A DNA stretch of 64,000 nucleotides from Marinobacter bohaiensis (GCF_003258515.1 NZ_QGEH01000001.1:806001-870000), one strand, 5' to 3'; shown: positions 1,216 to 11,874, numbered from the stretch's first letter. Notes: a model not told the origin generated them from the sequence alone. Made by a program: numbers and translations.

Positions 1216-1935
1216 TTAACTCAGCGGCTTGAGGTGGCGCAGCATTCGCTTCTCCAGCAGGCGGAAGCAGAACACGATGGTAAAGGTCAGGGCCATGTAG
1301 ATCAGGGCCACGGCGATGAAGGCATCAAACGGCGCGTAGAAGCGGGAGTAGATGTCACGCGCGGCGCCGGTCAGGTCCACGATGGTCACCACGCTGGCGA
1401 TGGCACTGGCGTGCAGCATGAAGATCACTTCGTTGGAATAGGCCTGCAGGGCACGGCGGGCGGCGCTGGGCAGGATGATCCGCTGCATGCGTTTCATCCA
1501 GGACATGCCGTAAGCCTTGGCCGCTTCCACCTCGCCATAGGGCGTGGCTTCCAGGGCGCCGCGGATGATCTCCGTGGTGTAGGCCGCGGTGTTCAGCACG
1601 AACGCCAGCAGGGCCGGGTAGAACGGATCCTTGAAGATCACCCACCAGAAGGTGTCCTGGATGCCCTCAATCTGGGCGATGCCGTAGTAGATGATGTAAA
1701 GCTGGATCAGCAGCGGCGTGCCGCGGAACAGGTAGGTGTAGAGCCATACCGGGCCGGACACGAACGGGTTATGCACAGTGCGCATCACCGCCAGCGGAAC
1801 GGAAAGCACCAGGCCGATGACCAGCGACAGGAAAACCAGTTGTACGGTAGTCACCAGGCCATCCCAGTAATGCAGCATGGTGGTGGCGGTGAACACCTGG
1901 TTCTGGTTGAGAAGCTCGGTAATGAATTCTGGCAT
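1216..1935 (-). CDS. Basic amino acid ABC transporter permease (ArtM/HisM/AotM type)
   Basis: Inner-membrane permease subunit, 239 residues, of a polar/basic amino-acid ABC importer. It has the HisMQ-family layout of about five membrane segments and the cytoplasmic EAA loop near residues 130-150 (GALEATPYGEVEAAKAYGMS) that docks on the ATPase. The start codon follows the preceding permease stop by 4 bp, and its ribosome binding site (GGGGGAC) lies inside that gene's 3' end, so the two permeases are translationally coupled. Together with the ATPase, binding protein and astE it suggests arginine/ornithine or histidine uptake. The exact substrate cannot be read from the sequence. Confidence 0.9.
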   Translation of the reverse strand: MPEFITELLNQNQVFTATTMLHYWDGLVTTVQLVFLSLVIGLVLSVPLAVMRTVHNPFVSGPVWLYTYLFRGTPLLIQLYIIYYGIAQIEGIQDTFWWVIFKDPFYPALLAFVLNTAAYTTEIIRGALEATPYGEVEAAKAYGMSWMKRMQRIILPSAARRALQAYSNEVIFMLHASAIASVVTIVDLTGAARDIYSRFYAPFDAFIAVALIYMALTFTIVFCFRLLEKRMLRHLKPLS

Positions 1936-1939
1936 TTGC

Positions 1940-2644
1940 TCAGTCCCCCTTGACGATACCGACGCTGACCCGGGAATTGAGCCACTTGATAAAGAGTTCG
2001 GACACGGCCGTCAGCAGCAGGTACATGATCGCTACCGGCACAAAGAACTTGAAGGGCGCGTGTTCGGCCTTGCTGGCCTGTTCGGCGATGCGGACCATGT
2101 CGGTCAGGCCGATGATGGAGACCAGGGCCGTGGTCTTGAGCAGCACCTGCCAGTTGTTGCCGATACCGGGCAGGGCGTGGCGCAGCATCTGCGGGAACAT
2201 GATGCGGCGGAAGGTGTGCCAGCGGCTGAAGCCGTACGCCTTGCCTGCTTCAATCTGACCGCTCTCAACGGCCAGGAAGGCACCGCGGAAGGTTTCGGTC
2301 ATGTAGGCGCCGAAGATCAGGCCGATGGTAAGCACACCGGATATGAACGGATCGAACTGGATAAACCAGTCGATTTCGAATTCGTAGTAGAGAAAGTCGG
2401 ACAGGCTGTTCACCATGACCTGGCCGCCGTAGTACAGCAGCAGCATCATGACCAGATCCGGTACGCCGCGGATAACGGTGGTGTAGAAGGTCGCGCCAGC
2501 GTACAGGCCGCGATTGCCGGAAAGCTTGGACGAGGCGCCGATCAGTCCGAGGACTACCGCAAGCACCAGCGACAACAACGCCAGTTCAGCGGTAACCACT
2601 GCGCCTTTCATTAATGAAGGGCCGTAGCCGTGCAGGTCGAGCAT
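1940..2644 (-). CDS. Basic amino acid ABC transporter permease (ArtQ/HisQ/AotQ type)
   Basis: Second inner-membrane permease of the same importer, 234 residues. It carries several hydrophobic segments and an EAA-type coupling loop (ESGQIEAGKAYGFSRW) in its second half, as in HisQ/ArtQ. In this transporter family the two permeases form a heterodimer that is energised by a HisP-type ATPase. It lies 57 bp downstream of the binding-protein gene and 4 bp upstream of the partner permease. The ATG at 2644 gives the normal HisQ N-terminus (MLDLHGYGPSLMKG). Confidence 0.9.
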   Translation of the reverse strand: MLDLHGYGPSLMKGAVVTAELALLSLVLAVVLGLIGASSKLSGNRGLYAGATFYTTVIRGVPDLVMMLLLYYGGQVMVNSLSDFLYYEFEIDWFIQFDPFISGVLTIGLIFGAYMTETFRGAFLAVESGQIEAGKAYGFSRWHTFRRIMFPQMLRHALPGIGNNWQVLLKTTALVSIIGLTDMVRIAEQASKAEHAPFKFFVPVAIMYLLLTAVSELFIKWLNSRVSVGIVKGD

Positions 2645-2701
2645 GGATAGGTCCGTGTTGGGGACAGGCCGCCGGCAGCGTTGCCGGCGGCCGTGCCGGG
2701 T

Positions 2702-3472
2702 TTACATCTTGATGTCGTAGGAGAAGTACTTCTTCATGATGGTGTCGTAAGTGCCATCATTTTTCAGAGTCTCCAGGGCGGCGTTGATCTGCTCGGCCAG
2801 ATCCGCGTCGCGTTTGCGCATGGCAACGCCCACGCCTTCACCCAGCTTCACCGGCTCGCCGATTTCGTGGAAACCTTCACGGCCCAGCAGAGTCTGCTCG
2901 CCCACCGGGTAGTCGACGAAGACCATGTCCAGGCGCTCGCCTTCCAGGTCCAGGACCATGTCGTCGGCGGTGGTGTAACGCTTGATTTCCACGGTGCCGC
3001 TCATGTTCTCGGTGACGTAGGTGTCCATGGTGGTACCGCGCTGGACGCCGACGATCTTGCCTTTCATGGCGTCCATGTCAGACGGGTCGGTGTTTTCGTC
3101 GTTCTTGGCGAACCAGCCACCCGGGGTGATGTAGTACGGCTCGGAGAACAGCACCTTCTCGGCGCGCTCCGGGGTGATGGACATGGAAGACATGATGGCG
3201 TCGAACTTGCGCGCCAGCAGCCCCGGGATCATGCCGTCCCAGGACTGGATGACGAAGTCACAGTTGGCTTCCAGTTCCTTACACATGGCTTCGGCCAGTT
3301 CCACTTCGAAACCGGTCAGGGTGCCATCCGGGTTTTTGTATTCGAACGGCTCGTAGGGCACGTCGAATGCAATGCGAATGTCTTTCCAGTCGCGTGCCTG
3401 GACGGAGCCCGCTGCGACGGCCAGGGCACAGGTTGCTGCAACAATCAGCTTTTTCATGAGTCGCTTCTCCAT
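2702..3472 (-). CDS. Periplasmic basic amino acid binding protein (ArtJ/HisJ/AotJ type)
   Basis: Periplasmic substrate-binding subunit (SBP_bac_3 family), 256 residues. The N-terminus MKKLIVAATCALAVAAGSVQA is a classical Sec signal peptide with cleavage after AQA at about residue 26. The mature part shows the family features: a YEPFEYKNPDG substrate-loop region, DGMIPGL, MSSMSITPERAEKVLFS and the C-terminal INAALETLKNDGTYDTI. An earlier ATG gives MEKRLMKK; the ribosome site and signal peptide fit either choice. It lies between the ATPase and permease genes, and the operon ending in astE favours arginine/ornithine as ligand, an inference. Confidence 0.9.
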   Translation of the reverse strand: MEKRLMKKLIVAATCALAVAAGSVQARDWKDIRIAFDVPYEPFEYKNPDGTLTGFEVELAEAMCKELEANCDFVIQSWDGMIPGLLARKFDAIMSSMSITPERAEKVLFSEPYYITPGGWFAKNDENTDPSDMDAMKGKIVGVQRGTTMDTYVTENMSGTVEIKRYTTADDMVLDLEGERLDMVFVDYPVGEQTLLGREGFHEIGEPVKLGEGVGVAMRKRDADLAEQINAALETLKNDGTYDTIMKKYFSYDIKM

Positions 3473-3573
3473 TGTTTTGCCTTTTTATCCAGTGATTCGG
3501 GATCACTGTTTTCTCTTTTTTCTGAACGCTTTCCGGCGGGCCAATCCCGCCGTGGTTGGAACAGAACGGGTGA

Positions 3574-4344
3574 TCAGAACTTGGGCGCCAGGAACTGCTT
3601 CATGCGCTCCGAGTCCGGATTGTCGAAGACTTTTTCCGGCGTCCCCTGTTCTTCAATGCGGCCCTGATGCAAGAACAGGACCTGGGACGACACATCACGG
3701 GCAAACGCCATCTCGTGGGTCACGACGATCATGGTGCGGCCTTCCTCGGCCAGGCTCTGCATAACGCGCAGCACCTCGCCGACCAGTTCAGGGTCGAGGG
3801 CGGAAGTGGGTTCGTCAAAGAGCATGACTTCCGGCTCCATGGCCAGGGCCCGGGCGATGGCCGCGCGCTGCTGCTGGCCGCCGGACATCTGCGACGGATA
3901 ATAGTCCTTGCGCTCGTAGATGCCGACCTTGTGCAGGTAGGCTTCGGCGCGCTCGATGGCCTCTTTCTTGGGTACCTTGAGCACGTTGATCGGGGCTTCA
4001 ATGATGTTCTCGAGCACTGTCATGTGGGACCAGAGGTTGAAGCTCTGGAAGACCATCGACAGCTTGGCGCGCATCAGTTCCACCTGCTTGTTATCGGCGG
4101 GAATGCGGACACCCTTGCGGTTGGTTTTGAACCGGATTGGTTCACCGTGGACGATGACGTCCCCGGAGGTGGGCGTTTCCAGCATGTTGATACAACGCAG
4201 GAAAGTACTCTTGCCGGAGCCGGAACTGCCGATCAGCGACACCACATCGCCTTTGCGGGTTTCCAGGGAGATTCCCTTGAGAACTTCGTTGTCATTGAAG
4301 GTTTTGTGGATGTCTTTGCAGATCAAGGGCGCATTGTCCGCCAT
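3574..4344 (-). CDS. Basic amino acid ABC transporter ATPase (HisP/AotP type)
   Basis: ATPase of the importer, 256 residues, first gene of the five-gene operon. Walker A GSSGSGKS is at residues 39-46, the ABC signature SGGQQQR at 154-160 and Walker B VMLFDEPT at 173-180, followed by the D-loop SALD and the switch histidine in VTHEM. The reading frame is open further upstream, but the ATG at 4344 (MADNAPLI) is chosen because AGGAG lies seven bases before it and it gives the family's usual length. Two 10-bp direct repeats lie 30-56 bp upstream of this start. Confidence 0.92.
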
Positions 4345-4373
4345 GAATGACTCCTGGGCCTGTCGGTAACGAT

Positions 4374-4400
4374 CGATATCTGAGTTGGACCGATATCTGA
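4374..4400. promoter_or_regulatory. Direct repeat upstream of importer operon
   Basis: Two exact 10-bp copies of CGATATCTGA start 17 bp apart (4374-4383 and 4391-4400), 30-56 bp upstream of the ATPase start codon. They lie where a promoter or regulator-binding site would be expected. The repeats do not resemble a standard ArgR box, and no regulator gene is adjacent. Confidence 0.35.
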
Positions 4401-4500
4401 AGTAAAGATAGTCGCATTCGAGTGGCTGCACTAACCCGCGGAAACACGAGCACGCGTGACGATTGGGCTGGCATCCGAAGCAGTCGGGAAAGGGGGAGAT

Positions 4501-4632
4501 CTACTCGTCGAGGACCTTGGCGAGGACGAGCTTGGCCACGGGCGATTGGCCGATGAGGGCTGCCGGCTGGAGTCGCGGGCGAATCACCGTGGGGATTGTC
4601 GATGGGTCTGTCGTCATCTGAAGGCTTTGCAT
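4501..4632 (-). CDS. Possible small ORF, unknown function
   Basis: A 43-codon frame (start MQSLQMTTD, end SPVAKLVLAKVLDE) whose C-terminal half looks protein-like, with an amphipathic VAKLVLAKVL segment. A longer start is possible at 4677. The ribosome site (GGAAAAAG) is weak and there is no conserved neighbour evidence, so it may be chance. It would lie upstream of the importer operon on the same strand. Confidence 0.18.
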   Translation of the reverse strand: MQSLQMTTDPSTIPTVIRPRLQPAALIGQSPVAKLVLAKVLDE

Positions 4633-5088
4633 CTGCTTTTTCCAGCAGCCGCGACCGGGATCGCCGGCGGGCCGCATTGCCCTTCTCTTTTTTGGACCGT
4701 CTTGCCCCGGCCTGGGTCAGCGGCTCTTTTAAAGCGCGTGGCTGACACCGATTGCTTACCGGGAGTGCGGTTGAATAGCGCCAAGTTTTACGGACTGTTG
4801 CGATAAAAATCAATAGTTGGCCTGTTCGGCGTCAACATGCTTCGCGATGCGATGTATCACGGGCATCCTGAAAAGCATCGCTACATGAGCGGGTTAGGGA
4901 CTCCCGAAGCGGCGCGGAGTGCTTCCGCCCGGTGACAAAAAATAACCGATTCGATGGGCCAACCTGTTAAGGTGGAAAGCTGGCGTTTTAAGGTAAAACG
5001 TTGGTGTTGATCGGCCGTTTACGGCCGGACAGGGATGAAGCAGACGTGTAAGGGAGTACCCCAAAGAACAAGAACGGGTACACGTTGA

Positions 5089-5289
5089 ATGGTTTTTTCC
5101 GATAACGATGTCTTGCTTGAGCGCGGCCTGCTGCGGGTGACGGCGAGGGCCTGCGATCCCGACGAGTCGGTGACCCGGCGTGCCTATGATGTGGAAATCG
5201 CCGGGCAGGAGATTCTCAAGACGTTCCCCACCTTTGACGAGGCACGCCAGTTCCTCGATATGGTGGCGCCGGCCCCGGATGACTCCTGA
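5089..5289 (+). CDS. Small hypothetical protein, distantly B-family-like
   Basis: A 66-residue acidic protein (start MVFSDNDVLL, end APAPDDS) with no domain I recognise. Its second half, YDVEIAGQEILKTFPTF followed by DEARQFLDMV, lines up with the core of the small B-family proteins at 8095 and 9578 (Y-x-V/I-E-V ... F-D/E-A ... Y/F-L/F-D/E-M). It may be a diverged member of that family. The ribosome site is poor (GTTGA before ATG), so the start is uncertain; a TTG three bases upstream is also possible. Two short dyads precede it. Confidence 0.5.
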   Translation: MVFSDNDVLLERGLLRVTARACDPDESVTRRAYDVEIAGQEILKTFPTFDEARQFLDMVAPAPDDS

Positions 5290-5310
5290 AGGCCCGCGCC
5301 CGCGCTCCTG

Positions 5311-5550
5311 CTATTTTTCGCCCAGGATCGACAGCAGACTCTGGGCATGCTCTGCCGCCTCGATGCCCAGTTGGGTCAGATAGCCGCCGTCTTTCTGGGT
5401 GGTGAGGCCTTTATCGTACAGGCGCTCGGCCGCCGCGACCGCATCGAAGGTCGCCTCGTGACTGTGAACCTTGATACCTTCGCGGGTGGAATGCAGATTG
5501 AACAGGGTCAACAGGTTGAGTTCATGCAATTGGTCGGATGTGAAGGCCAT
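5311..5550 (-). CDS. TIGR02647 family small protein
   Basis: A 79-residue protein matching the conserved gammaproteobacterial TIGR02647 family, sometimes labelled DNA-binding; its function is not established. Visible family features are LHELNLLTLFNL at the N-terminus, EGIKVHSHE in the middle and LYDKGLTTQKDGGYLTQLG near the C-terminus, a winged-helix-like pattern. The frame is open to 5685, but the ATG at 5550 is preceded by AAGGACA at good spacing and gives the family length. It is transcribed convergently with the gene at 5089 and divergently from the lipoprotein at 5676. Confidence 0.8.
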   Translation of the reverse strand: MAFTSDQLHELNLLTLFNLHSTREGIKVHSHEATFDAVAAAERLYDKGLTTQKDGGYLTQLGIEAAEHAQSLLSILGEK

Positions 5551-5675
5551 GGCGTGTCCTTGTATTGTTGTTGACTCTATCCATAGTTGTAACTGACTGG
5601 CGCGGCTTCGCAAGTCTTTGCGGGCCTGACAGCTTGCCGCCGGTCCCGACCTTGCCGATTCAGGGAGAGAAAACC

Positions 5676-6350
5676 ATGACCCCATCGATTAACTCTGTGC
5701 GCCGATCCTATGCGGCCGTCCTGGTACTGCTGGCGCTGGTGCTGGTCGGCGGCTGCAGCTCGATGTATTACGACGCCATGGAGCAGTTGGGGTTCGAGAA
5801 GCGGGATATCCTGGTCGACCGGGTGGAAGAGGCGCGAGATGCCCAGGGCGAGGCGCAGGAGACCTTCCGTTCCTCGCTGGAGCGCTTCCAGAGTGTGGTC
5901 AATACGCCGGATACCGATCTCAAGGCGAAGTACGAGGAGATCCGCGATGCTTATGAAGACAGCGAAGCGGTGGCCGCCGACGTGCGCGACCGGATCGACG
6001 CCGTGGAAGACGTTTCCGGGGCGCTGTTCGAGGAGTGGGAGGACGAGCTGGATCGCTATGAAAGCGCGTCGCTGCGCCGTTCCAGCGAGCGTCAGTTGCA
6101 GGAAACCCAGCAGCGCTATGCCCAGCTCATTGACCGGATGCATCAGGCCGAATCGCGCATGGGCCCGGTGCTGGAAGCGTTCGAGGACCAGGTACTGTTC
6201 CTCAAGCACAACCTCAATGCCCAGGCCATTGGTTCCCTGGAAAGCGAACTGGGCCGCATCCAGCAGGATGTGGACGCGCTGATCCAGAACATGGAAGCCG
6301 CCATTGCCGAGTCCCAGTCCTTTATCGACAGCTTCCAGACAGCGCAGTAA
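5676..6350 (+). CDS. DUF2959 family lipoprotein
   Basis: A 224-residue lipoprotein of the DUF2959 family; the molecular role is unknown. The N-terminus has a basic region, a hydrophobic stretch and the lipobox LVGGC with the lipidated cysteine at residue 27. The mature chain is almost entirely charged and helical with heptad spacing (residues about 45-220), so long coiled coils are expected. The start is placed at 5676 because AGGGAGAG lies eight bases upstream; an earlier in-frame ATG at 5565 would bury the signal peptide. Serine after the lipobox cysteine (CSS) predicts outer-membrane sorting. Confidence 0.85.
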   Translation: MTPSINSVRRSYAAVLVLLALVLVGGCSSMYYDAMEQLGFEKRDILVDRVEEARDAQGEAQETFRSSLERFQSVVNTPDTDLKAKYEEIRDAYEDSEAVAADVRDRIDAVEDVSGALFEEWEDELDRYESASLRRSSERQLQETQQRYAQLIDRMHQAESRMGPVLEAFEDQVLFLKHNLNAQAIGSLESELGRIQQDVDALIQNMEAAIAESQSFIDSFQTAQ

Positions 6351-6369
6351 ACGGCGCTCCCGGTCCCGG

Positions 6370-7131
6370 TCAGCCGCTGGCCGGGATCGTCTGGCTCTCG
6401 CGCAAACTCTTGTAGGCGTTCAGGTCGAAGAAAGACACGTGCACGATGTGCCGGGTCGGGATGACGATGCGGAAATCCGACAGCCCGGCCATCCGCGCGC
6501 CTTCCTCCAGCAGTCCCTTTTCCTCGTAGTGGTGGTAGTAGTTGCGCAGCAGCACCAGCTCCAGATCGTCGTCGCGCCGGTAGCCACTCAGGGTGGGGAT
6601 GATGGAAATGGAGTCCAGTAGCGACGCCTCCGTGTGCACGTGGGTCACCAGCCCGATGTAGCACTTGCGGGTGTCCAGGGTCAGGGAGACCCACTGCTCG
6701 CCGCGCACGGCGTCGAGGAAAATGCCTTCCAGCTCATCCCCCAGACAGGCCTTGCGCAGCTTCTTCAGGCGCACGGCCGGGTGTCGGGTGCGGCGCTTGC
6801 TCGCGTAGCCGCTGACGGTGGCCAGGAAAAAGGCGAGCAGGGCGATCAGCAACTCCCGGGGCGTGATGGCCTGGCTGGTGTAGTCGCCGATGTTGCGGGT
6901 CAGATGATCCAGTGTGATGTCCAGGAGGGGCAGGGCGCCGGAGGGCAGGTCGAATGCGTCGATGAGCAGGACGATCAGGGTCGCCAGGATAACAAAGACA
7001 AACCCGTACAGGGCCACCGAGAAATAGCTTTCCCAGCCGGAAAGGCGCTTTTGCTGGTAGCGTGCCGGCAGGTGCAGGGACGTGAAGATGAAACCGCAGA
7101 CGAGGACAAACGCAACGTAAAGGACGCCCAT
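6370..7131 (-). CDS. Membrane protein with cytoplasmic C-terminal domain, unknown
   Basis: A 253-residue protein I do not recognise. Hydrophobic segments at about residues 2-22, 38-62 and 92-108 form an N-terminal membrane anchor. From about 113 (SKRRTRHP, positive-inside) a soluble domain of some 140 residues follows, with CYIGLVTHVH, SISIIPTLSGYRRDDD and FRIVIPTRHIVHVSFFDLNAY as its most striking stretches. It starts 5 bp after the small gene at 7137-7322 and the two are probably co-transcribed. Convergent with the DUF2959 gene. Confidence 0.7.
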   Translation of the reverse strand: MGVLYVAFVLVCGFIFTSLHLPARYQQKRLSGWESYFSVALYGFVFVILATLIVLLIDAFDLPSGALPLLDITLDHLTRNIGDYTSQAITPRELLIALLAFFLATVSGYASKRRTRHPAVRLKKLRKACLGDELEGIFLDAVRGEQWVSLTLDTRKCYIGLVTHVHTEASLLDSISIIPTLSGYRRDDDLELVLLRNYYHHYEEKGLLEEGARMAGLSDFRIVIPTRHIVHVSFFDLNAYKSLRESQTIPASG

Positions 7132-7136
7132 GCGCT

Positions 7137-7322
7137 TCAGGCGGTTTTGCGGTCGGGTTCGAAATCCTTGAGGCTTTGGAGTTGGGCGCGAATGGAGCGG
7201 ACGACCTCTTCGTTTTCGAGGTTCAGTTTGACATTGCCATCACGATCCACGCGATAGCGGCCGGCATCCTTACCGCTGCTGTCTTTCCCTTTTTTCCAAA
7301 ATCCGAAGAATCCCACGGACAT
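7137..7322 (-). CDS. Small basic hypothetical protein
   Basis: A 61-residue soluble protein (start MSVGFFGFWKKGK) with a basic, glycine-rich N-terminus and a conserved-looking helical tail (EEVVRSIRAQLQSLKDFE). No known domain. The ATG has AGGAG nine bases upstream. It ends 5 bp before the membrane protein at 6370-7131, so the two form a two-gene unit and may act together. Confidence 0.65.
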   Translation of the reverse strand: MSVGFFGFWKKGKDSSGKDAGRYRVDRDGNVKLNLENEEVVRSIRAQLQSLKDFEPDRKTA

Positions 7323-7641
7323 AAGAAACGTCTCCTGACTGATGATGGCAGCATAGCGAATGGGGCGCGGCGTTGTCTATTCCATGACCGGTACGCAACG
7401 TCGACCGTCAATCTGTTGCGAAGAGTCTTCACTGGCCAGTTTTTTCTTTTCATGGCAGATCAAAAGGCTAGGACTGGATGCGGGAATCCTTGCCGCGTCT
7501 TCATGAATTTCGGGTTGCACCCGGGTTGATCAGTTCTTAAGCTGTTTTTCCCCATGGAGGGATGATCAGAACAGAGAGGAATAAGGCGAGCGCCAAACCG
7601 AACAATACGAAAAACGTGCGGCCAGCACGGAGGCACCACCC
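7323..7641. other. Intergenic region before the small-protein array
   Basis: About 320 bp between the divergent genes at 7322 and 7642. No convincing promoter. The minus strand at 7537-7653 can encode a short hydrophobic tail (residues FFVLFGLALALFLSVLII before a charged end), discussed among the findings. Otherwise nothing is recognised. Confidence 0.4.
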
Positions 7642-7923
7642 ATGCTCGAACATTACCTCTGCAGTACCCTCCATTTGTCGCCCGGTCACCAACTCCGACC
7701 GGTTGAACCCGAAACCATGATGACCCGTTTGCCGGACGCCCCGGCGGGCAAGTGTCAGCACTTCTGCCTTCGTGACGACAGCAACCGTATCATCGCCCTT
7801 TTCGATGCACGACGGATGGCTGGCGGTTATTTCGGTTACCACAGGTATCACCCGGACGGCACGCACCTGTTGCATCGACTGTTTCGCATGAAGCAGCCGG
7901 TGGAGTATGAATTCCCGGTCTAG
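7642..7923 (+). CDS. Small protein A1 (paralogous FGY family)
   Basis: A 93-residue protein without a known domain. Its second half carries the motif shared with the proteins at 9109 and 9884: F-x-L-R-D-x-x-N-R-I-I-A-L-F-D-A, then GGYFGYHRYHPDG and L-x-x-R. The aromatic FGY turn between two predicted strands suggests a small beta-rich fold. The ATG follows GGAGG at eight bases. It is the first member of an alternating array A1-B1-A2-B2-A3. The N-terminal third is unlike its paralogues, so only the C-terminal core is conserved. Function unknown; no signal peptide or membrane segment. Confidence 0.65.
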   Translation: MLEHYLCSTLHLSPGHQLRPVEPETMMTRLPDAPAGKCQHFCLRDDSNRIIALFDARRMAGGYFGYHRYHPDGTHLLHRLFRMKQPVEYEFPV

Positions 7924-8094
7924 ATCGATCTGGAGATCGGACTGGATAGCGGCCGGTTTTGAGGGGCGACGATGTGTCGGCCCGCTGCCGCCGGTTGATA
8001 TAAAAAGCGCCTGCTCCGGCCGGGTCATTATGTCGGGGCAGTGGTTGAGATCAGGGACGATCTGGAACTCGATTGAACGTTCATAGTGAGTCCT

Positions 8095-8280
8095 ATGCGA
8101 TCCGTGATTCTCGAACATTTCTGTGTACAACTCGTCCAGGAAAAGCGTCAGGACGACGTTCCCCTCTACAGCATTGAGGTGGAAGGCGAAGGCTCGCTCT
8201 ACAGCCATGTCAGCTTCGAGGCTGTCATGCACTATTTTGAGATGCTGGTTCACCCCGCCGATACCGGAACCGTGGCCTGA
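8095..8280 (+). CDS. Small protein B1 (paralogous EVEGEG family)
   Basis: A 61-residue protein, same length as its paralogue at 9578. Both begin MRSV and share LY-x-(I/V)-EVEGEG-(S/T)-LYS, then SF-(E/D)-A, HY-(F/L)-(E/D)-ML and HP near the C-terminus. The start is placed at 8095 rather than at the GTG at 8086 because the DNA around the ATG (ATGCGATCCGT) is conserved between the two copies. It lies 171 bp after A1. No known domain; it looks like a small alpha/beta protein. Two terminator-like hairpins follow at 8386 and 8511. Confidence 0.65.
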   Translation: MRSVILEHFCVQLVQEKRQDDVPLYSIEVEGEGSLYSHVSFEAVMHYFEMLVHPADTGTVA

Positions 8281-8385
8281 GCTTCCTGGCTTCACGCAAA
8301 TGAAACACGACTGCGCCAGGATGGATCCTGCATCTGGTTGATCCCTGTTTGGCCTGGACCGGGAGGTCAGGGCTGAACGATTGTG

Positions 8386-8408
8386 GCCGGCGATTCTGCC
8401 GGCTTTTT
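8386..8408 (+). terminator. Intrinsic terminator after B1
   Basis: Stem GCCGGC/GCCGGC (8386-8391 and 8398-8403) with a six-base loop followed directly by TTTTT. About 105 bp downstream of the B1 stop codon. Confidence 0.6.
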
Positions 8409-8510
8409 GTCATCCAGCTGTCATCATCTGTCAGTAGCTTTATTCAGCAGTGCCAAGAGCCTCTGAAAAAGTTCAGTGCTCAGACTCTTCTGGAGTGGAC
8501 ATCGTTGCTT

Positions 8511-8535
8511 GCCAGGCTTTTGCCTGGCTTTTTTA
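8511..8535 (+). terminator. Strong intrinsic terminator
   Basis: Stem GCCAGGC/GCCTGGC (8511-8517 and 8522-8528), TTTT loop, then a run of six T residues. It cannot serve B1, which already has a terminator at 8386, so it may end an independent short transcript beginning near 8453. Confidence 0.7.
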
Positions 8536-9108
8536 TGTCTGCTTGAGGCCCTTTTCGCTCTGTAGCCATCGGCTGTGGTCCACTGACCCGAATAGCGTTG
8601 GCCATTTTCCTACATCCGCCTCATCCATTTCGTCTCAAACCCGGTTCGTGTTGTCGTTATTCTGGTGACGTCTCTAATGGATGGATTGCGTGTAACACAC
8701 CGACCAGAGAGATTGGTCTGTCGAGCCTGTCCGTATAGCAGTCGGACTTTTTTCATGGGTCGTTGATGCCCTGGGCCTGCCGGAGTCCCCCCGGAGGTCA
8801 CGTGAAAGGGCATCCTTTTTCTTCCCCGCACGTTCGAACGAAACCTTTTCCAGCCTGAGCGATTCTCCCCCGTTTCCTGGCATCTTCCCTTCCGGCGGCT
8901 GTTCCCGTTGCTGAGCCAGCCTTGCCCTTCGCCCGGCTTGTGGGTTGGTCGTGCTCCGGCCGTCATAAAAGTGTCATCGCATTGCCATTTGCCCAAAGCT
9001 ACCCTATGAAGCGCTGGCAGGAGAGCGTTCGCCACCCAGACAGATCCATGGACCATGGCCATGTGGCTGTGGCGCCCCGCATTTCACTGATGAACATCGG
9101 AGGCAAGC

Positions 9109-9360
9109 ATGATCGAAGAGCACCTGCGCGACTGTATCTATATTCCCCAAGGGCATCGGCTGGTCCGCCAGGCGGCGGATGCTGCAGAGGCCGACGAGGA
9201 CCGGGTATCAACCTGTCAGAGCGAACGGTTCCAACTGCTGGACGCCAGGGACAACCTGGTGTGCCGCTACAAGGCCTGGCAGGTCGACAACGACTTCTTC
9301 GGATACTTCGAATACGACACCGACGACACGCTGGTCGATCGCAAGACCGTGACCCTCTGA
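9109..9360 (+). CDS. Small protein A2 (paralogous FGY family)
   Basis: An 83-residue protein paralogous to A1 and A3. The shared core is FQLLDARDNLVCRYKAW followed by NDFFGYFEYDTDD and L-V-x-R-K. The N-terminus (MIEEHLRDCIYIPQGHRLV) also resembles A1 (MLEHYLCSTLHLSPGHQLR), so A1 and A2 are the closer pair. The ATG has GGAGG seven bases upstream, the same signal as A1. Acidic overall, no signal peptide. Function unknown. Confidence 0.65.
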   Translation: MIEEHLRDCIYIPQGHRLVRQAADAAEADEDRVSTCQSERFQLLDARDNLVCRYKAWQVDNDFFGYFEYDTDDTLVDRKTVTL

Positions 9361-9577
9361 CGCGTGCTGGCCACATGGCGCACCCGGCGCATCGTGGTAA
9401 CCACGTACCCCGGCGTGGCCCTGTTTCACCGGATTGTCACGCAGCGTCGTTTTAATGCACCTGGTTTCGGCTTATCTGTCGGTCGAAACGAACGTGTTGC
9501 CAATGAACGATGCTGGATGGCATCGACTGGACAGCCACGGATGGCTGGCTTTTTCAGCGATTCCGAACAGGTGCCCC

Positions 9578-9763
9578 ATGCGATCCGTACTGCACGATCA
9601 CGACGTGGTCCGATTGATCAAAGACGAAACCAATGCCAGTGAAACCCTCTACCGGGTCGAGGTGGAAGGTGAAGGCACGCTCTATTCGGCCGCCAGTTTC
9701 GACGCCGCCCTGCATTACCTCGACATGCTCATGCACCCGCTGATCGTTGAACCCGCCGCCTGA
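9578..9763 (+). CDS. Small protein B2 (paralogous EVEGEG family)
   Basis: A 61-residue paralogue of B1 of identical length, with MRSVLHDHD at the start and LYRVEVEGEGTLYSAASFD then AALHYLDMLMHP. The frame is open upstream to 9434, but the conserved ATGCGATCCGT context with B1 fixes the start at 9578. It lies 217 bp after A2, repeating the A-then-B order of the first pair. A hairpin with GGCTTTTT at 9530-9553 lies between A2 and B2 and may be a weak terminator. Confidence 0.65.
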   Translation: MRSVLHDHDVVRLIKDETNASETLYRVEVEGEGTLYSAASFDAALHYLDMLMHPLIVEPAA

Positions 9764-9831
9764 AACGCTGTCTGAATGCTTCGGGTTTCTGCGTTACCCA
9801 CCCATCTGTCTTCTTCCAAAACGTTGCTGTG

Positions 9832-9849
9832 AACGGGGCCGGCCCCGTT
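9832..9849. promoter_or_regulatory. 18-bp perfect palindrome upstream of A3
   Basis: AACGGGGCCGGCCCCGTT is perfectly self-complementary and ends 34 bp before the A3 start, next to its ribosome site (AGGGAAAGGGAG). It could be an operator or a leader hairpin. No similar sequence was seen before A1 or A2. Confidence 0.4.
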
Positions 9850-9883
9850 GCGCGGTAACCATAGAGGGAAAGGGAGTCCGATC

Positions 9884-10195
9884 GTGAAAGCGCTGATAAC
9901 GCACCTGCGCGAGAAACTGGAACTCAAACCAAGACAGACGCTCGTGGAAATGGATCGGATGCGAACGTCGGACGGTTCAGCGCGATTTCGCAAGAAAATG
10001 TTCGAACTCCGCGAAGATGGCGACCGGGTCATCGCGCTCTATGATGCCTGGATGATCGAAGAGCGCGGCAACGGCTTCTTCGGCTACTTCCGGTACAACG
10101 CGGATGGCGACCTGATGGGGCGCCGGACATTCATCATCCGCCGACGCCGGAAGCCGACGCGCACTGGGCCCGAAACCGAATCGTCCGGACACTGA
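9884..10195 (+). CDS. Small protein A3 (paralogous FGY family)
   Basis: A 103-residue member of the A family with a very basic C-terminal tail (RRRRKPTRTGPETE). The core FELREDGDRVIALYDAW plus GNGFFGYFRYNADGD and L-M-x-R-R aligns with A1 and A2. The N-terminus is different (MKALITHLREKLELKPRQ, helical and charged). A GTG start at 9884 is chosen because AGGGAAAGGGAG precedes it; the frame is open to an ATG at 9848 without a ribosome site. It ends the array; no third B gene follows. Confidence 0.6.
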   Translation: MKALITHLREKLELKPRQTLVEMDRMRTSDGSARFRKKMFELREDGDRVIALYDAWMIEERGNGFFGYFRYNADGDLMGRRTFIIRRRRKPTRTGPETESSGH

Positions 10196-10276
10196 ATATG
10201 ACACTTTGTTCACTTGTAAGGGCTGCCGAAATCCAGACAATACCCCGCTTTTGCTCGACCGAACGGGGACTTACGG

Positions 10277-10693
10277 GTGAAGTGGATAGTAGTTCTGGCG
10301 ATGCTGCCAGCGATAGTGTGGGCTGACTACGGCAGCGTGCGGGTGGACGAAGTGGTGCGGGTCTACGACGGCGACACCATCACCGTGAACGTCGGCGAGT
10401 GGCCGGCGCTGCTGGGTCATGAGATCGGCGTGCGCGTGAACGGCATCGACACCCCGGAAATCCGCGGCCGCTGCGAGAGCGAAAAGGCCCTGGCCTATGA
10501 AGCTCGCGACCTGGTCCGCCGCATCCTCGCGACCGCCCGCGACATCGAACTGCGCAACCTCGACCGCGGCAAGTACTTCCGCGTGGTGGCCGACGTCTAC
10601 GTCGACGGCCAGAACCTCGCCTCCCACGTGCTGGCGGCGAAGCTGGCTTATCCATACGACGGCGGAACCAAGCAGGGGTGGTGTGGCGCCTGA
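10277..10693 (+). CDS. Secreted staphylococcal-nuclease-like protein
   Basis: A 138-residue thermonuclease-family protein. A short hydrophobic N-terminus (MKWIVVLAMLPAIVWA) looks like a signal peptide, so it is probably periplasmic or secreted. The SNase core is intact: VRVYDGDTITV with the metal-binding DGD at 31-33, RVNGIDTPE with Arg53 and Glu61, and Arg102 in GKYFRVVADVY, matching the three catalytic residues of the family. The GTG start at 10277 has only a weak GGGGAC signal. It probably hydrolyses DNA or RNA. Downstream is a convergent membrane-protein gene. Confidence 0.85.
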   Translation: MKWIVVLAMLPAIVWADYGSVRVDEVVRVYDGDTITVNVGEWPALLGHEIGVRVNGIDTPEIRGRCESEKALAYEARDLVRRILATARDIELRNLDRGKYFRVVADVYVDGQNLASHVLAAKLAYPYDGGTKQGWCGA

Positions 10694-10714
10694 CCGGGAA
10701 AGGATCGAAAGCGC

Positions 10715-11128
10715 TTAGTAGGTCACCTGAATGCCCCGCTTCCGGATAAAACCGTCCGAGACAAACACACCGACAATCCCACCCACCGAAACCGCAAACG
10801 TGGCGATGAAAAGCGCGGGCAGGGCCAGCGGTCCGCTCAGCCAGCCATCGCCGAACAGGTAGAGCAGGGACGAGAGAATCGCCACCGCAAACGCCCACTT
10901 GTTCGTCAGGAAAAAGAACCCAATCTCGAAGGCCCAGACCGACTCCCGGGCCTTGTAGCGCGACAGTCCGAACGCCACGTAAGCAGCGGTGGCCAGCAAG
11001 GCCAGTCCGGCCACCACGAGTGTGTCCGGATTCAGCGGTGCCGCGACGAGCCAGACGTAGCCGATGCGTAGCGACAGCCCGGCCACGGCCAGCCAGAATA
11101 AAAACAGCGGACCCAGGATCAGTCCCAT
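10715..11128 (-). CDS. Small multi-pass membrane protein, unknown
   Basis: A 137-residue hydrophobic protein with about four membrane segments (near 2-28, 37-55, 75-92 and 95-122), ending FIRKRGIQVTY. No family recognised. Convergent with the nuclease gene, 21 bp between stops. The start at 11128 has AGGGAGGAAAGG just upstream, a good ribosome site. No neighbour suggests a role. Confidence 0.65.
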   Translation of the reverse strand: MGLILGPLFLFWLAVAGLSLRIGYVWLVAAPLNPDTLVVAGLALLATAAYVAFGLSRYKARESVWAFEIGFFFLTNKWAFAVAILSSLLYLFGDGWLSGPLALPALFIATFAVSVGGIVGVFVSDGFIRKRGIQVTY

Positions 11129-11280
11129 CCTTTCCTCCCTGAAGGCGCAATCCCTGATGAGCCGGTAAGCGTATCAGGCTCGCGCCTCCGTTACCGCGTT
11201 GGGCACATCAATTTCGTTCAATACCGCGTCCGGCCGTTATCGCATCCTGCGGCAACCTTTCATGCATGAAGAGAGCGACC

Positions 11281-11874
11281 ATGACTGTTTCGATCCTGCT
11301 GATGATGTCCGCCTTCGCGCTCGCCGCGTCCATTTCGCCGGGGCCGGTGAACCTGGTGTGCCTGAGCAGTGGCACCCGTTACCCGATTTCCCAGGGCCTG
11401 ATTTTTGTCACCGGCGCGACCCTGGGGTTCATTGCGCTGTTTATCGGCGTCGGGTTGGGGCTCTATTCCGTGCTGGCGCTGGTGCCTTGGCTGGAGGAGG
11501 CCTTGCGGTGGGGCGGGATTGGGTTCCTGCTGTACCTGAGCCTGCGCCTGTTTCTCGACGATGGCCGGTTGCCGGACCGGGAGGCGCGCGCCGCGCCGGG
11601 GTTCATGACCGGGGCGCTGATGCAGTGGCTCAACCCCAAGGCCTGGCTGGCGTCCGCCTCGGGCATCGGTGCCTACACCAACGGCAGCGAGCTGGACCAG
11701 GTGATCGTTTTCGCCGCGCTGTACCTGCCGATCTGCTGGCTGTCCCTGGGCAGTTGGGTCTACGCCGGCGCCTTCCTGCGGCGCCATATCCAGCGTCCGG
11801 TGGTGCTGGTTACGATCAACCGGGTGTTGGCGTTACTGCTGGCGGCGACCTGCCTGTACCTGTTGTTCGAGTAG
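11281..11874 (+). CDS. LysE/RhtB-family amino acid exporter
   Basis: A 197-residue inner-membrane exporter of the LysE family, which expels amino acids or derivatives. Six hydrophobic segments are visible, with the family landmarks SPGPVNLVCLSSGTRY near the N-terminus and FMTGALMQWLNPKAWL in the middle. An ATG at 11266 is in frame, but the ATG at 11281 is preferred because GAAGAGAG precedes it. Its 3' end overlaps the convergent AraC regulator by 42 bp. An exporter next to an AraC regulator is a common pair, so the regulator may control it. Confidence 0.88.
   Translation: MTVSILLMMSAFALAASISPGPVNLVCLSSGTRYPISQGLIFVTGATLGFIALFIGVGLGLYSVLALVPWLEEALRWGGIGFLLYLSLRLFLDDGRLPDREARAAPGFMTGALMQWLNPKAWLASASGIGAYTNGSELDQVIVFAALYLPICWLSLGSWVYAGAFLRRHIQRPVVLVTINRVLALLLAATCLYLLFE

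Follow-up and report, generated by a model that had tools for sequence, protein, structure and literature searches.

Two families of very small proteins, here called A and B, alternate in an array of five genes within the window, by which we mean the whole 64,000-nucleotide stretch of DNA that was analysed, and both families appear to be undescribed in every library searched. Their members evolve under purifying selection, they occur together and side by side in related genomes more often than expected, and the B genes of the array type are preceded by a hairpin that is a candidate binding site for CsrA/RsmA. As the best explanation of the whole we tentatively propose a lineage-specific pair of non-enzymatic partner proteins, with B under CsrA/RsmA control, and hold it with less than even confidence. 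It should be noted that both the regulatory device and lineage-specific small proteins are of kinds that are already known.

A six-gene cluster

An earlier note on this DNA had described five plus-strand genes alternating between two families (A1-B1-A2-B2-A3, 7642-10195), and all five open reading frames are present at those positions. The five are real, but the set was one gene short: an iterated HMM search recovered a third B-family member, B0, 2.4 kb upstream of the array (family profile E = 4e-22), so that the window holds a cluster of six genes, three A and three B. The cluster and the genes around B0 are the following.

3574-4431, minus strand: amino-acid ABC transporter ATPase gene
5089..5289, plus strand: B0, 66 aa, family B, divergent from the transporter ATPase gene
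5311-5541, minus strand: TIGR02647/DUF5669 gene, between B0 and A1, unrelated to A and B
about 5565-6350, plus strand: gene between B0 and A1, unrelated to A and B, which we take to encode a DUF2959 lipoprotein
6370-7131 and 7137-7322, both minus strand: two conserved genes without a known domain, between B0 and A1
7642..7923, plus strand: A1, 93 aa, family A, divergent member
8095..8280, plus strand: B1, 61 aa, family B
9109..9360, plus strand: A2, 83 aa, family A, with orthologues in sister species
9578..9763, plus strand: B2, 61 aa, family B
9884..10195, plus strand: A3, 103 aa, family A, GTG start, basic tail, with an orthologue in genome G004

The resemblances on which the two families had been founded are borne out. 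A1, A2 and A3 are roughly 20-34% identical and share ten invariant columns, FGY..Y among these, and a profile of A2 finds A3 in its own genome (E = 4e-6). B1 and B2 are of equal length and 46% identical as proteins, and their DNA is alike at the start (85% over 40 nt), as had been claimed, and also centrally (77% over 26 nt). The GGAGG ribosome site reported upstream of A1 and of A2 is found in both places. The gaps of the array were searched for decayed extra copies without a match, and their DNA matched no related locus by blastn or tblastx; no repeat recurs across them as integron-type recombination sites would, and a sigma-70 promoter scan gave no score above chance.

Several features around these genes may be recorded here. 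Two terminator-like hairpins (8385-8404 and 8511-8528) lie 3' of B1, where a gap of 828 bp holds no detectable gene and has no match in related loci. A small exported-looking nuclease gene with a YDGDTI motif (10277-10693), which has a weak PADLOC match to 'SNc+LTD', begins 81 bp 3' of A3 on the same strand and was not noticed beside A elsewhere. The minus-strand pair at 6370-7131 and 7137-7322 has no Pfam match and is syntenic in G004 (L161 11798-12898).

Selection and predicted folds

Profiles made from the array proteins find members in many other genomes, and in both families dN/dS lies between about 0.04 and 0.43 for orthologous pairs with finite dS. For example, dN and dS are 0.06 and 0.76 for B2 of G002 and G005, 0.05 and 0.75 for A of G003 and G004, and 0.06 and 1.37 for A of M. 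maroccanus and M. guineae. The earlier note had named two refuting outcomes, a lack of homologues in other genomes and a ratio near one, and neither is seen; in orthologous pairs dN is far below dS, whereas the copies within the window have diverged so far that synonymous sites are close to saturated or past saturation. Such purifying selection in species pairs indicates that A and B are translated, and we regard it as close to certain that they are real genes.

Neither family has a Pfam, NCBIfam or PHROGs match above cut-off or below E = 0.02, nor any match in PADLOC, in keeping with the earlier statements that they contain no known domain and no toxin motif. Being unmatched in these libraries, conserved and under purifying selection, they deserve the description of undescribed small-protein families that had been proposed for them. 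No literature on the A or B proteins was found, and pMAQU02, a plasmid that carries both (see below), is named in a single, unrelated paper.

The AlphaFold2 model of A2 (mean pLDDT 87.5) is built from one helix, one short strand and an antiparallel sheet of four strands, and that of B2 (mean pLDDT 82, with only eight sequences used) has four strands and then a helix. Solved structures searched by sequence with A and B gave no credible match, and Foldseek searches with the two models returned nothing below E = 0.1. At the level of common arrangements, the A fold matches the KhtT N-domain, SnoaL-like proteins and immunity proteins, and the B fold matches MmoD, YkuJ and PC4-like entries; as modelled, both are common small beta arrangements that are uninformative on function. 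Of the solved folds, that of MmoD (6d7k_H), an inhibitory subunit belonging to soluble methane monooxygenase, ranks first for the B model: the rmsd over 56 residues is 2.7 at 11% identity, and the Z of 6.7 is within the range of common arrangements. Unlike MmoD, the B genes have no monooxygenase genes noticed near their loci. We think it very improbable that B binds nucleic acids as a domain built like PC4, perhaps a transcription cofactor: the predicted topology agrees and the PC4-type entries 4bhm, 5a4o, 5a4n and 2l3a are among the fold matches, but these matches are weak, with a best Foldseek E of about 1 and a Z of 3.2-3.5 for the entries named, and the B proteins are acidic (pI 4.2-4.7).

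Distribution and co-occurrence

To describe the distribution of the families, we scanned 151 genomes of one bacterial family, which comprises Marinobacter and its sister genera; the window's genus is set apart from Marinobacter here as a sister genus. The profile search suggested by the earlier note finds A in 45 of the 151 genomes, spread over three genera, and B in 28, spread over four, the main other genus with members being Marinobacter. Both families occur together in 18 genomes, where a hypergeometric test that takes no account of relatedness expects 8.3 (p = 3e-5), and the count of neighbours that had likewise been suggested gives nine genomes with A and B within about 1.3 kb on the same strand, where 0.03 would be expected by chance. 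B is absent from 27 of the 45 genomes with A, and A from 10 of the 28 with B; since each is also found alone, the pairing is strong and not obligate. We consider it quite likely that A and B are functionally linked.

Beyond the family, all members found in an order sample of 391 genomes belong to the one bacterial family, and a class sample of 274 genomes yielded only a single weak A match (E = 5e-4), which lies in a 408-aa frame. Judged from these searches, A and B are confined to one bacterial family. A phage origin was rejected: tblastn against 50,697 phage records came back empty, and a scan of viral contigs with A gave no confirmed relative.

Close homologues are carried by the conjugative plasmid pMAQU02 of M. 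nauticus VT8, namely MAQU_RS21045 / WP_011783571.1 for A (profile E = 1.5e-36) and MAQU_RS21040 / WP_011783573.1 for B (profile E = 2.9e-24), both annotated as hypothetical only. They share one strand, as in the window; unlike the window, the plasmid has one A and one B with a hotdog-like gene between them and CHAD and TerB-like genes before them, and no array. The earlier observation that no mobility gene is seen needs qualifying because of these plasmid homologues. The families recur in Marinobacter, an important oil-degrading genus, and are also found on this conjugative plasmid of VT8, a laboratory strain with a sequenced genome.

History of the array

The flanks of the array are matched in the sister species G004, with mutY and a yggX-like gene on one side and, on the other, two conserved unknown genes, a DUF2959-like gene, B0 and the amino-acid transporter; with these flanks (L161) G004 has a single A gene. 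Orthologues of B0 adjoin the transporter ATPase gene in 11 genomes, the window counted in. This fixed place of B0, together with the presence of A alone in many Marinobacter genomes, again indicates that neither family needs the other as a partner in every case. On the tree of A proteins, A2 clusters with the single-copy A genes of sister species in the genus, and A3 and A1 cluster with A3 of G004, A1 being a long branch of unsure placement. At another locus, G002 has the order B-A-B, and G005 has B-B without the A.

The synteny with G004, the groupings in the A tree and the arrangements in G002 and G005 show that the array is an old local expansion and not a fresh tandem duplication; on these comparisons it is placed at an ancestral mutY-to-transporter locus and derived from at least two old A lineages. 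The earlier note took the copies to have evolved after duplication; from the separate groupings of A2 and of A3 and A1 the copies are not recent, and the alternation does not stem from a recent duplication of an A-B unit. In G004, A had at first looked fused to a 446-aa protein (L144 6071-7411), which was rejected: the extension is just an open frame upstream, and the real gene is the A3 orthologue.

Small, diversified proteins in arrays could also be a toxin-antitoxin or toxin-immunity set whose members neutralise partner toxins or protect against them, a reading that we consider quite unlikely. The small size, the arrays and the divergent copies would all suit it, as would gain and loss (G005 has the pair B-B and not the A), carriage on a conjugative plasmid and the likeness of the A model to immunity proteins, the last of these at noise level (Z 4.3-4.5). 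Against it, the families match no toxin or defence family, are restricted to one bacterial family and often occur each without the other, and B0 is syntenic in 11 genomes in the manner of a housekeeping gene.

Candidate CsrA/RsmA sites upstream of the B genes

A conserved hairpin upstream of the B genes, which is absent from the earlier note, points to their regulation. In all six array-type B genes of the window's genus (B1, B2 and four in G002 and G005), CANGGANG lies in an ANGGAN hexaloop hairpin whose GGA is at -36 to -40 from the start codon; the loop is closed by a C-G pair and the stems have 3-5 pairs. This form agrees with the consensus for CsrA/RsmA sites. Such a hairpin between -45 and -30 is present in 1 of 931 control upstream regions. 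The corresponding features of the window are as follows.

8048..8063, plus strand: B1 leader hairpin, AGATC-AGGGAC-GATCT, with CANGGANG in the ANGGAN hexaloop and GGA at -40; candidate CsrA/RsmA site
9502..9577, plus strand: conserved B2 leader, with two GGA hairpins and a T run
9508..9525, plus strand: B2 leader hairpin 1, CGATGC-TGGATG-GCATCG, GGA at -63
9532..9547, plus strand: B2 leader hairpin 2, CAGCC-ACGGAT-GGCTG, with CANGGANG in the ANGGAN hexaloop and GGA at -39

The stems of B1 and B2 are wholly different (AGATC/GATCT versus CAGCC/GGCTG) and the DNA upstream of B1 aligns poorly with the other leaders; the motif and its distance are nevertheless equal. About 80 nt are conserved upstream of B2 and the four B genes of G002 and G005, and a second GGA hairpin at -61 to -65, which may offer the CsrA dimer a further site, is found in five of the six leaders, B1 being without it. 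When a leader model is made from the other species only, it recovers the B2 leader at E = 3.6e-16, and the window's second-best match has E = 0.29. Paired positions covary at a few places, and because only five sequences were compared these statistics are weak; the six leaders are, moreover, not six independent events. Folded together, both B2 hairpins are clearly better than shuffled sequence (z = -3.3), and the B1 hairpin in isolation is no better (z = -0.5).

CANGGANG is the Rsm motif, to which RsmA/E/I bind in Pseudomonas putida (PMC6849547), and each of six genomes of the window's genus has one csrA gene above cut-off. The arrangement resembles CsrA/RsmA-controlled leaders such as that of cfcR in P. 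putida, in which the motif likewise sits in the loop of a short hairpin close to where the open reading frame begins and csrA is present in the genome. It differs from leaders of that type in that the main candidate site of the B genes is about 40 nt upstream, clear of the ribosome site and the start codon, and in that the predicted target is a protein of an undescribed family. From the placement and form of these candidate sites, we think it likely that CsrA/RsmA controls B1 and B2, the window's B genes of the array type.

The hexaloop hairpin was not seen upstream of A, of most B0 orthologues or of the Marinobacter B genes. The window's B0 has a weak version only, and A1 carries CANGGANG at its ribosome site, a place in which a GGA would be present in any case. 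The leader matches no known RNA family in Rfam, and none of its matches at other genes in the genus was convincing; the best of these (E = 0.007) was discarded, as it sits inside a long minus-strand frame.

The hairpin at 9532-9547 also scores as terminator-like and is followed by TTTTT, which raises the alternative that the leader is itself the product, a short CsrA/RsmA-sequestering RNA ending at the hairpin and T run, with B made by read-through only. Five of the six leaders have the two GGA hairpins and the T run that this alternative calls for, but the B1 leader has neither the T run nor the second GGA hairpin, the other species have stems of only 3-4 pairs, which make weak terminators, and an Rfam match is lacking; we give it very little credence, less even than a PC4-like B.

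Under the preferred reading of CsrA/RsmA control of B, the protein would bind the hairpin of the B1 and B2 mRNAs about 40 nt 5' of the start codon, and the B2 mRNA would offer a further GGA hairpin about 24 nt upstream of the main site. With these candidate hairpins in its mRNAs, B output would depend on the Csr/Rsm switch, so that the amount of B would follow the change between growth and starvation or biofilm life. The leader hairpin would then be a precise handle on the timing of B production.

Neighbours in Marinobacter and possible roles

Of 23 Marinobacter loci from the genome scan, 10 have an orphan ParA-like ATPase gene less than about 5 kb from A (one of them a partial match), and nine of these ten genes are on the same strand as A; the loci fall in about four related species groups. 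Small proteins beside an orphan ParA-like ATPase recall ParA partners of the McdB type, a likeness of gene position; unlike that type, A and B of the window's genus have no ATPase gene next to them, and the ParA orthologue there stands beside thrS without A or B. For this reason the link to ParA and storage is kept as a lead only, and the association may be just a shared ancestral neighbourhood.

A and B also belong to longer same-strand runs. The order CHAD, TerB-like, A, hotdog-like, B is found in M. maroccanus and on pMAQU02, M. guineae has TerB-like, A, hotdog-like, B, and M. nauticus has A, hotdog-like, B, TerB-like; 'hotdog-like' is what the gene's sequence suggests, Pfam giving no match above cut-off. 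In pMAQU02, M. guineae and HL-58, the neighbourhood also includes genes for pyruvate kinase, acetyl-CoA hydrolase/transferase and acetoacetyl-CoA reductase. Attachment to polyphosphate granules is a known trait of CHAD proteins. In Herbaspirillum, a CYTH-CHAD protein was identified among the proteins of polyhydroxybutyrate granules (PMC3783465).

The strongest rival to a partnership is that A and B have separate and unrelated functions, standing together only through the ancestral mutY neighbourhood, with the array as a relic of local duplication. Each family is alone in many genomes, B0 has its own conserved place at the transporter, A/B loci near mutY recur in both genera and ParA is unlinked in the window's genus, all of which agree with independent roles. 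However, same-strand adjacency survives a change of neighbours (A-hotdog-B, B-ParA-A and ParA-B-A, and B-A-B in G002) and co-occurrence exceeds expectation; we consider independent roles less likely than not.

As we read them, A and B are probably cytosolic, go back to the common ancestor that Marinobacter shares with its sister genera, and have been kept together at linked loci. If they are partners, as we prefer, they would be small folded domains acting as adaptor- or inhibitor-like partners that bind each other or a shared target, and the extra copies of the array would be diversified partners. That both are non-enzymatic partner proteins, a view suggested by the small folds and the lack of an evident catalytic pattern, has in our estimation a little under an even chance. 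The likeliest target would be sought among the Marinobacter neighbours, the orphan ParA-like ATPase and the CHAD, TerB-like and hotdog-like genes, which may relate to carbon and phosphate storage, although we judge it unlikely that this machinery is what A and B act on. The fullest version is more doubtful still: A and B would make up a new module of two proteins, with CsrA/RsmA acting on B as its switch, and the module would couple the orphan ParA-like ATPase to storage bodies for carbon or phosphate, with the window's array as its diversified partners. If the link to ParA and storage is true, ParA-like ATPases would gain a partner system of a new kind. In any case, the array provides naturally diversified copies that are useful for finding a binding partner.

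Other genes recur around these loci. In two Marinobacter genomes (L148 and L156), a GAK-system CofD-like gene (TIGR04357) and a gene for HprK-related kinase B lie near or adjoin A or B, and the set of L148 also holds amphi-Trp. On pMAQU02, the region 1380-11442 (L199, NC_008739.1) contains ParA, pyruvate kinase, acetyl-CoA hydrolase, acetoacetyl-CoA reductase, CHAD, TerB-like, A, hotdog-like and B genes, and looks like a mobile storage-related island. Finally, a 561-aa protein with no clear Pfam match and a highly conserved N-terminal part (L063 10515-12200 and relatives) recurs beside A, B and the ParA gene in Marinobacter and is shortened on pMAQU02.
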